A stretch of DNA of 64,000 bases from Achromobacter insuavis (GTDB taxonomy: Bacteria; Pseudomonadota; Gammaproteobacteria; Burkholderiales; Burkholderiaceae_B), in assembly GCF_902859645.1 (NCBI RefSeq), contig NZ_CADIJR010000024.1:1-64000 (forward strand), given 5' to 3'. Shown here piece after piece: positions 10,699 through 12,545 of the stretch. The notes under the pieces were generated by a model. It saw only the letters and a list, made by a program, of their open reading frames with translations, did no database searches and had not been told where the DNA came from. Within the stretch, counting starts at the first letter, position 1, and each line of letters starts with the position of its first letter. The position numbers and the translations under genes were made by a program.

Positions 10699-10724
10699 TC
10701 GTTATATATTTCAGCATATAACGA
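10699..10724. promoter_or_regulatory. Candidate ModE molybdate operator (Mo-box)
   Basis: TCGTTATAT - ATTTCAGC - ATATAACGA: perfect 9-bp arms and an 8-base spacer. This has the geometry of the E. coli modA operator (CGTTATAT-N8-ACATAACG) and the general CGNTATATA-N6-TATATNNCG Mo-box pattern. It ends 27 bp before the NifQ-like start codon. ModE with bound molybdate usually represses from such a site. No modE gene is in the window. Confidence 0.75.
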
Positions 10725-10751
10725 TTCCTTCAAATCTTGCCTTGAACCGCC

Positions 10752-11369
10752 ATGGATGCCGTCCTGACCGCCGCCCCGCCCGCCCGGGACATCGATGCCC
10801 TGACCTGTAGCCTGCTGGAGCAGGCCGTGCCCGGCCATCCCGACACCCGCTTTTTCGCGACGGTGATCGGCAAGAGCCTGGCGCATCGCGACCTGGCCCG
10901 CACCGGCCTGTCGCCGACCGAACTGGCCGAAGTGCTGGCCAACCTGTTCCCTGGCGCGCAGGCCGGCTCCGCGCCGGCCTATGCCAACCTGCGGGCGCAA
11001 CTGCTGGCTTACGCGGCGCGCGGCCTGGCCAGCCCGCAAGCGGATTTCACGCGGCTGCTGCGCGTGCTGCTCGACGCCTGTAGCGGCCAGGCCTCGACCA
11101 CCGCCTGGGTCACCAGCGTGCTGGCGCAAGCCTGCCTGCGCCCCGACCACCTGTGGCGCGACCTGGGCCTGAACGGACGCGAGGACGTCACCGCGCTGCT
11201 GACGCGCCACTATCCCGGCCTGGTGGCGCGCAACACGCAAAATCTGCGCTGGAAGAAGTTCCTGGCGTATTCCGCGTTCGAGCATGCCGGCCAGCCCGCC
11301 GCCGCCGCGCCCGGCTGTGCGGACTGCGAGGACCATGGGTTCTGCTATGGGGATGGCGGCCGGCGTTGA
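10752..11369 (+). CDS. NifQ-family protein
   Basis: A 205-residue protein whose C-terminal half matches NifQ, the Fe-S protein that carries molybdenum to FeMo-cofactor assembly. Diagnostic stretches are HLWRDLGLNGREDV, HYPGLVARNTQNLRWKKFL and the terminal cysteine cluster. NifQ proteins usually have C-x4-C-x2-C-x5-C; here Cys189, Cys192 and Cys198 give C-x2-C-x5-C, and the first position is Ala184. No nitrogenase genes are near, and the likely host group does not generally fix nitrogen, so another molybdenum-related role is probable. The Mo-box at 10699-10724 supports a molybdenum link. The family call is strong; the function is open. Confidence 0.85.
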   Translation: MDAVLTAAPPARDIDALTCSLLEQAVPGHPDTRFFATVIGKSLAHRDLARTGLSPTELAEVLANLFPGAQAGSAPAYANLRAQLLAYAARGLASPQADFTRLLRVLLDACSGQASTTAWVTSVLAQACLRPDHLWRDLGLNGREDVTALLTRHYPGLVARNTQNLRWKKFLAYSAFEHAGQPAAAAPGCADCEDHGFCYGDGGRR

Positions 11370-11413
11370 GCCGGCGCTTGAGGGCGCGCGGCGCCTGCGC
11401 CCTGCGCCGGCTC
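11368..11413. terminator. Nested stem-loop shared by two convergent genes
   Basis: Outer arms GAGCCGGCGC (11368-11377) and GCGCCGGCTC (11404-11413) enclose inner arms GGGCGC (11382-11387) and GCGCCC (11397-11402). The outer arms contain parts of both stop codons of the flanking convergent genes. There is no T-run, so it would act as a simple bidirectional barrier or 3' end stabiliser. Confidence 0.5.
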
Positions 11414-12545
11414 AGAACCAGGTTAGCTTGACGAGCACCTGCGCGCTGTAGCTACCGGTCTTCAGCTCGGCGCCAGTCCGTTCGAGATGCGCCGTGTACG
11501 CCTGGGTCGCTGACAATTTGGTGCCGTACAGTGTCGGGCCTGCATTGCCGACGTAACGGACATCTGATATGCCGTACTGATCCATCGGAACGGGACCGAA
11601 CTTGACCTGCTGGTTGGCGGCATTGGTGATGGTCAGTTTCAGGCCGTTCTCCTGACCATTGGCATTCTTCAGGAAAATCTCCCGGTCGAAAATATCCGTG
11701 CGTTCGCCGCTTTGCGGCAGGAATGACACGACAGTAGGCAAGAAGAACCCGTCCAGGGGATTGCTGGAAGCCGGCGGGCCTGTCAGCGACTCCAACCCCG
11801 GGCAGGCCGCCGGACTATTGATGCGCGCCGTCAGATTGAACGGCTTGGCCTGCGGCAACTTGCCGTTGTAGCTTGCCGTCGTCAACACCGTGTCGAATGT
11901 GACCGTGTTATCGACATTGACCGAGCCGACGCAGGAGGGGACATGCTGGAAACGCGAGGGCGTGGTGTTCAAGAAAATGCCAGGCGCCGTCAAGGAGCTT
12001 TCATCCGCGACCAACTTGAACGCATGCGTGGCGGGTAGGAACGCACGCAGGGGCTTCAAGACCCTCTGTTCCAAATTCAGAACCATGAGGATGCGCCCGA
12101 TGCGTTCGCCGGTATCCCCCAGGTAAGGCTCATCGACACTGAAGTAGGGTAAGTACGTCGGATACAAGGGATCCGGGCTCCATTGCCCCTTAAAAAGGCT
12201 GTCGTAAACGATTGACAGCCTCAACGAGGCTTCTCTCAGGGAGTTCCTGATCGGCTCATAGTCGCCAAGGACCACGAGCGCCACCCGCTTCGGAGTCGTG
12301 GCATTGTTGAAACAGCGATACCTGAACTCATAGCTCTTGCTGATGTAAATAATGGAGCCGCCGGGCAACTGGCGATCAAGATCGAAACTGACCGACGGCG
12401 GTATTTGGAACGTCACGGTGTCGCCACCATCGAGCAATCTGCATCCTTGCACACCCGCTTGCGCATGCCCCAGCCTCGGCAACAGCGCAAGGACAGCAAC
12501 CAGCCCCGCGATCCAGGCGCGTGGCCCCTTCAGTCTTGCAGCCAC
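11412..12545 (-). CDS. Fimbrial adhesin-like protein (orphan)
   Basis: A 377-residue secreted protein starting at GTG with GGGAG 10 bases upstream; signal peptide ends near LGHAQA. The C-terminal third looks like a chaperone-usher pilin domain: it carries a paired-cysteine loop region and ends in SYSAQVLVKLTWF, the type of beta-strand and aromatic terminus recognised by pilus chaperones. The N-terminal two thirds would be the receptor-binding domain, as in two-domain tip adhesins. No chaperone, usher or major pilin gene is nearby. Its G+C is clearly lower than its neighbours, which suggests acquisition or unusual selection. Carbohydrate or matrix binding is inference. Confidence 0.65.
   Translation of the reverse strand: MAARLKGPRAWIAGLVAVLALLPRLGHAQAGVQGCRLLDGGDTVTFQIPPSVSFDLDRQLPGGSIIYISKSYEFRYRCFNNATTPKRVALVVLGDYEPIRNSLREASLRLSIVYDSLFKGQWSPDPLYPTYLPYFSVDEPYLGDTGERIGRILMVLNLEQRVLKPLRAFLPATHAFKLVADESSLTAPGIFLNTTPSRFQHVPSCVGSVNVDNTVTFDTVLTTASYNGKLPQAKPFNLTARINSPAACPGLESLTGPPASSNPLDGFFLPTVVSFLPQSGERTDIFDREIFLKNANGQENGLKLTITNAANQQVKFGPVPMDQYGISDVRYVGNAGPTLYGTKLSATQAYTAHLERTGAELKTGSYSAQVLVKLTWF

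Follow-up and report, generated by a model that had tools for sequence, protein, structure and literature searches.

The window, the whole stretch of 64,000 nucleotides of Achromobacter insuavis DNA that was analysed, contains at positions 10699–10724 a perfect inverted repeat of 26 bp (TCGTTATAT-ATTTCAGC-ATATAACGA, in short TCGTTATAT-N8-ATATAACGA, not assigned to a strand) and, at positions 10752–11369 of the plus strand, a gene of the NifQ family encoding 205 amino acids. Operators of ModE (Mo-boxes) consist of inverted arms of the CGTTATAT type separated by an 8-base spacer, a consensus that is backed here by the boxes found upstream of modA. The repeat before nifQ has arms and a spacer of this kind close to the start codon, the gap to the ATG at 10752 being 27–28 bp. 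With its 24-bp core and up to 3 mismatches allowed, only this one site is found in the 64-kb window, with 0 mismatches, where 0.01 sites are expected. Inside the operator, TATATT (10705–10710, plus strand) may be a −10 hexamer, and the box positions are conserved in the genus; a scan with the sigma-70 consensus recognised no promoter beside the box. On the minus strand nifQ is adjoined by a reading frame of 377 amino acids (11412–12545) that has no match in Pfam at E 0.001.

The protein matches PF04891 with 119.6 bits (cut-off 27), residues 48–200 aligning to positions 17–159 of the 159 in the profile, and it is the single PF04891 match of the genome. No NCBIfam model matches it, and its three closest named relatives are from Achromobacter (81–84% identity). 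Two conserved stretches stand out, both on the plus strand: the ACLRPDHLWRDLGL block of codons 127–140 (11130–11171), whose C128 and H133 are found in 108 and in all of 113 three-Cys sequences, respectively, and the CX2CX5C motif of codons 189–198 (11316–11345). In nitrogenase-type NifQ the motif is CX4CX2CX5C; in the protein of the window its first cysteine is replaced by A184, which leaves CX2CX5C only and places it in the three-cysteine, nif-independent type. The AlphaFold2 model (10752–11366; m79eff37758d4) is helical with a pLDDT of 89.5. A Foldseek search with this model gave nothing better than E = 2.0, thus no significant solved structural relative, and a sequence search of the PDB nothing better than E = 0.66; no ligand geometry can be read from the model.

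ModE-type operators in the genome and in the genus

The genome of the organism (6.82 Mb, 199 contigs) was scanned for the operator with the third base of each arm left free. The box before nifQ is its sole site with 0 mismatches, and the sole site with 1 mismatch lies upstream of modABC, 33 bp before the ATG of modA. With its second-best operator before modA the genome provides its own pointer to the operator, of which nifQ has the better copy. Four sites have 2 mismatches. One of them is upstream of napEDABC; no evident Mo gene lies beside the other three (C1:392894, C46:21588, and C166:1892), the genes there being called by eye. When up to 3 mismatches are allowed there are 31 matches versus 43 for the reversed-pattern control, so that weak sites alone carry no meaning, and the 3-mismatch matches were dismissed as noise.

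ModE itself is encoded by one gene just downstream of modABC on the opposite strand. The genome-wide search with TIGR00637 gives 102.1 bits and the gene alone 100.3 bits (cut-off 98.5), and the protein has two Mop/TOBE units. ModA (TIGR01256) and ModB (TIGR02141) score 197.6 and 232.9 bits, respectively. The genome thus has both a ModE protein and, before modABC, the same type of operator as before nifQ. No NifD, NifK, NifE, or NifN exceeds its cut-off in this genome, the best match to PF00148 having 16.4 bits versus 28.6, and a search for nifD found no match.

The third, weaker box of the genome (C9:4376–4399, which is L027 4376–4399; 12 of 16 arm positions) is located 101 bp upstream of the napE frame of napEDABC, the operon of the periplasmic nitrate reductase. 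NapA (1594 bits), NapE, and NapC are above a curated cut-off, and NapD and NapB were matched below theirs. Boxes before the nap operon were also found in three other genomes of the genus, G004, G006, and G008, with 14, 13, and 14 of 16 positions, respectively (L307 2268, L308 2382, and L312 2177); the distance to the napE frame is 103 bp in G004 and 115 bp in G008, and NapA was confirmed by model in these two and by sequence only in G006. It should be noted that G004, G006, and G008 were picked for having a listed site, so that four of four is not a frequency. These boxes suggest that nitrate reductase belongs to the ModE regulon of the genus. Judged by their upstream sequences, modABC, nifQ, and the operon of a molybdenum enzyme appear to have one operator type in common.

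Among the 43 genomes of the genus, 40 have NifQ, with one match each, and 3 are without it; NifD, NifK, NifE, and NifN were found in none of the 43 at E 0.001. The box is present before all 40 NifQ genes with 12–16 of 16 arm positions. With 10700 as the first position, its positions 6–9 and 11 are the same in all 40 and position 10 in 39. In the printed part of the alignment the left arm and the next three bases show hardly any variation, in contrast to the poorly aligning flanks. In dinucleotide-shuffled upstream regions 12 positions were reached in 27 of 4000 cases and 14 in 0 of 4000. An independent, looser scan of the named Achromobacter loci gave 13–16 of 16 in 25 of 25. A modA-type site, read by sequence, is present in all 19 listed genomes (G000 to G018), of which G000 and G001 were the ones checked against modA itself; the nifQ site was found in 18 of the 19, the box of G003 (12 of 16) being beyond the mismatch limit. 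Downstream of the box, ATG is the first in-frame start codon in 31 of the 40 genomes, at a distance of 30–47 bp in 29 of them and of 16 and 1 bp in the remaining two; in 9 genomes, including that of the window, a TTG precedes it. The matched NifQ stretch is without an internal stop in all 40. Genes for molybdenum proteins were not found within 6 kb of NifQ in any of the 25 named Achromobacter loci; the gene of Achromobacter stands alone, with its own operator.

Two further observations were made in the scans of the genus. In G007 there are two more sites with 2 mismatches, one near a receptor-like gene and one before an ABC-permease-like gene, as judged by eye. In G001, G004, G005, G008, G010, and G016 another palindrome-like sequence around ATCTTACGAT or ATCGTAAGAT, which nearly matches the pattern, recurs; it is perhaps the site of another regulator.

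A preliminary description of the locus had placed a ModE-type operator shortly before, namely 27 bp upstream of, a gene of the NifQ family in a genome without visible nif genes. The 26-bp repeat and its presence before NifQ in 40 of 40 genomes bear out the first part of this description, the score with PF04891 the second, and the search for NifD, NifK, NifE, and NifN, negative in this genome and in 0 of 43 of the genus positive, the third. The description had also recommended looking for modE, which is present above the TIGR00637 cut-off; neither of the two genomic findings that it had named as speaking against it, a missing modE and, as judged by NifD, NifK, NifE, and NifN, a nif cluster elsewhere, was encountered. 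Control of nifQ by ModE is well supported by this comparison, which predicts that ModE binds to the box.

Cysteine pattern of NifQ and nitrogenase

NifQ was found in 49 of 268 genomes drawn from the family, in 70 of 399 from the order, and in 47 of 398 from the phylum. In the draw from the order, nifD was above the cut-off in 51 of the 70 NifQ genomes, below it in 2, and without a match in 17; in that from the phylum, 5 of the 47 were without a nifD match. The motif was read in 159 NifQ genomes (the draws plus the genus), nitrogenase being judged in the genus by PF00148 and in the rest by nifD. All 88 NifQ proteins from nifD-positive genomes have CX4CX2CX5C, as have all 5 from genomes with nifD below the cut-off. 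In nifD-negative genomes 59 of 66 have CX2CX5C only, 40 of these 59 coming from one genus; 4 of the 66 have no motif, and 3 (in G347, G582, and G655) have kept four cysteines. The cysteine pattern of NifQ thus tracks nitrogenase (88 of 88 nifD-positive four-Cys, 59 of 66 nifD-negative three-Cys).

The two classes also differ at positions outside their definition, as is evident when 113 three-Cys sequences are aligned with 98 of the four-Cys class, 5 duplicates of 220 having been removed first. A further cysteine, located eight residues before the lost one, is present in 97 of the 98 four-Cys but in only 28 of the 113 three-Cys sequences, residue 99 is E in 94 of 98 versus F in 105 of 113, and E193 is found in 105 of the three-Cys sequences. 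What the protein of the window shares with the four-Cys NifQ of nifD-positive genomes is PF04891 and the core (HLW-D-GL-R, N, WK, and CX2CX5C). The absence of the first cysteine of CX4CX2CX5C is what defines its class.

Whether this cysteine was lost by convergence, from two origins, was considered with a quick tree of 213 sequences (2 short rows of 215 dropped), which includes the Cys columns and has long branches. The three-Cys proteins appear in it in two places, and its starred branches call for 2 or more changes. Yet a single clade of three-Cys and Cys-less proteins is compatible with the AU test (p = 0.572), the tree held to that clade being 5.43 log units better than that of the free search, and convergent loss was therefore not retained.

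NifQ in molybdate loci outside the genus

Following a suggestion in the preliminary description, other genomes were searched for the combination of a ModE-type operator with NifQ and no nifD, and such genomes exist. The same order includes nine nifD-negative genomes (L183–L188, L190, L218, and L219) in which the genes are arranged as modA-modB-modC-nifQ-modE; family models were used to check this in L185 and L188, with modC there below its cut-off. When NifQ belongs to a mod operon, it is modA that is preceded by the box, as is the case in all nine, with 13–15 of 16 positions. L185 has an 8-bp overlap of modC with nifQ; in L219 nifQ and modE are about 500 bp apart. Six of the nine NifQ proteins are three-Cys and three are Cys-less (L188 5974–6480, L190 5778–6308, and L219, from G275, G405, and G585), the reading frame of the latter stopping before the Cys motif. 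A related arrangement is found in L220 (G588), where a receptor-like gene and a cytochrome-like gene (both recognised by eye) are followed by nifQ and modE; the gap between the receptor-like gene and a divergent modA-like gene contains boxes of 16, 15, and 13 of 16, and the receptor-like gene may serve molybdate uptake.

The 55 named loci outside Achromobacter come mostly from Burkholderia, Paraburkholderia, Caballeronia, and Ralstonia; in 41 of them a ModE-type domain is encoded within 6 kb of NifQ. Frequently, a substrate-binding protein, an ABC transporter, a TOBE-TOBE protein, a small protein with a molybdopterin domain, nifQ, and a ModE-like protein consisting of the HTH part only are found together. 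The HTH-only protein has 76.2 bits with TIGR00637, which is below the cut-off. For example, in L057 (10515–10961) and L059 (9487–9987) the DNA-binding part alone is beside NifQ, and other such loci have a separate TOBE-TOBE protein; the two proteins together are possibly a split ModE. In G496 (L189 5922–7349) a NifQ-like domain without the Cys motif is fused to ModD (TIGR01334, 239.7 bits) and followed by a TOBE-type protein. The association of nif-free NifQ with molybdenum genes is, as a comparison of loci, well supported. It is not universal: no ModE-type domain lies within 6 kb of NifQ in 14 of the 55 named loci or in 5 of 19 non-nif loci (L176, L177, L178, L179, and L191), and in the four ModE-less loci that were checked (L056, L063, L064, and L101) the neighbours look ordinary.

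Directly before NifQ outside Achromobacter, the box reaches at most 10 of 16 positions in 86 nifD-positive genomes, 5 with nifD below the cut-off, and 26 other nifD-negative genomes, and likewise in 54 of the 55 named loci outside the genus, the exception being L086 with 13; these counts refer to a fixed distance from the gene end, which misses boxes farther away, and 2 of 88 nifD-positive loci were dropped for short upstream sequence. A box is found on the megaplasmid of Cupriavidus metallidurans CH34 (L144, about 4894), where 15 of 16 positions, the third arm position being free, are matched 72 bp upstream of a four-Cys NifQ; to our knowledge this strain does not fix nitrogen. On plasmid pAB510d of Azospirillum sp. 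B510 a three-Cys NifQ (L141 3641–4345) closely follows a gene whose annotation is NAD-dependent formate dehydrogenase.

Role of a NifQ without nitrogenase

In the passages of PMC11605450 used here, NifQ from Azotobacter is described as a monomeric Fe-S molybdoprotein that donates Mo to FeMo-cofactor synthesis: NifQ of the nitrogenase type binds [Mo-Fe3-S4] and hands Mo to NifEN/NifH, and it is portrayed as the point at which Mo is directed specifically to nitrogenase cofactor assembly. According to the same source, nifQ mutants of both Azotobacter and Klebsiella show an impairment that raised molybdate relieves; this fits a role at low Mo. From the NifQ of Azotobacter vinelandii and Klebsiella that of the window differs in its setting, since there is no NifD, NifK, NifE, or NifN in the genome and a ModE-type operator instead of nif surroundings. 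With the ModE regulon of E. coli the system has in common the ModE protein, palindromic operators with an N8 spacer, and modABC and nap as apparent members, the difference being nifQ as a member here. MoSto, the Mo storage protein of Azotobacter, is a protein different from NifQ; the likeness would be in the proposed role of holding Mo. A full-text literature search, judged by titles and the beginnings of abstracts and including few subscription papers, returned nothing describing a nif-independent NifQ or a NifQ under ModE.

We consider it probable, on balance, that the three-Cys, nif-independent NifQ functions in general Mo homeostasis, that it is controlled by ModE and made when Mo is scarce, and that it serves molybdopterin enzymes. 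ModE with bound molybdate would occupy the operator before nifQ and block the gene; when Mo becomes scarce, ModE would release the operator and nifQ would be expressed together with the uptake system modABC. ModE represses modABC in E. coli, and as the box is 28 bp before the start of nifQ, similar to the 33 bp at modA and unlike the 101 bp at nap, repression is inferred also for nifQ, which is thus probably induced when Mo is scarce. The protein would then hold, prepare, or pass on the scarce Mo for molybdopterin enzymes including the nitrate reductase Nap, with C189, C192, and C198, and perhaps C128 and H133, as ligands. The preliminary description had gone as far as to see in a Mo-regulated NifQ outside a nif cluster a storage or trafficking system for other molybdoenzymes. 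Of this the Mo-regulated gene outside nif has gained a conserved operator and the lack of NifD, NifK, NifE, and NifN, and the link to other molybdoenzymes is suggested by the box of napEDABC. Independence of this NifQ from nitrogenase is supported; storage or trafficking is a role that it may have, the biochemical act being presumably that of a carrier, of a store, or of an accessory to uptake or sensing. Since the NifQ of the window is one motif cysteine short and some relatives in mod operons have none, the Mo-Fe-S chemistry of nitrogenase NifQ is not simply transferable.

The Cys-less proteins show that metal binding via the motif cannot be essential in all members, which argues against a cluster-based carrier in every case, and that the gene keeps its place in the mod operon for a reason that does not require the motif. 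They retain the operon place of the others, and this, together with nifQ between modC and modE in nine genomes, the 8-bp overlap with modC in L185, and ModE-type HTH and TOBE proteins among the neighbours elsewhere, would suit a NifQ that assists molybdate uptake or sensing instead of donating Mo and acts with ModC or ModE (in Burkholderia with a possible split ModE), for example by damping transport or tuning ModE, metal binding being secondary. We hold such an accessory function to be rather unlikely, as nifQ of Achromobacter stands apart from the mod genes, none of which lies within 6 kb of it in the 25 named loci, and as the conservation of H133 (113 of 113) and C128 (108 of 113) in addition to the three class-defining motif cysteines speaks for a metal site.

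The direction of control can also be read the other way. ModE activates some operons, that of nap in E. coli among them, and nap has an operator here too, so that ModE could activate nifQ and the protein, made when Mo is plentiful, could store or buffer it. The position of the box, like that before modA and unlike that before nap, and the operator that nifQ shares with the uptake genes modABC in nine other genomes make activation a somewhat weaker candidate still than an accessory function. That nifQ is the decaying remnant of a lost nif cluster, with the ModE site kept by chance, is very improbable: one cysteine of the nitrogenase-type motif is gone and the gene is missing in 3 of 43 genomes of the genus, but the matched stretch is free of stops in 40 of 40 with invariant core residues, the operator is kept in all 40 while the flanks align poorly, and the same kind of NifQ occurs in molybdate loci of other families. 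Induction under Mo scarcity and service to molybdopterin enzymes is therefore the reading followed here.

In the literature, NifQ was used in a nif survey (PMC3464626), and nifQ is presented within a nif operon (PMC4999443). Published work also takes NifQ as evidence of the capacity to fix nitrogen. It is named as a nitrogenase gene in a Burkholderia (PMC7369026), and PMC11648694 likewise counts it as part of nitrogen fixation; there, predicted nifQ and nifU were present in adult flies at all sampling points, some other nif proteins being missing at some, and Achromobacter aegrifaciens was one of two core species common to larvae and adults. The A. aegrifaciens locus in our set (L045) has a three-Cys NifQ; the NifQ of these two studies may be of either Cys class. 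Since NifQ of this kind probably manages Mo for enzymes other than nitrogenase, it should not be taken as a sign of nitrogen fixation, and the three-Cys signature is a simple sequence test against such a misreading.

The gene of the window is a new variant of the known NifQ family with a testable role. Tentatively, one may go further and suppose that NifQ is at its root a general Mo-homeostasis protein of the mod system, that the nif-free, ModE-controlled three-Cys branch still performs this older or parallel task by passing Mo to the molybdopterin pathway when the supply is nanomolar, and that the NifQ of nitrogenase was specialised for FeMo-cofactor via additional cysteines. If true, Moco enzymes would have a delivery step for Mo of which we know no described counterpart. 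The widespread nif-free branch, tied to ModE and modABC and with one cysteine lost, offers a natural comparison of which ligand serves nitrogenase and which general Mo handling, and with it the route of Mo from uptake to Moco becomes testable in non-diazotrophs.
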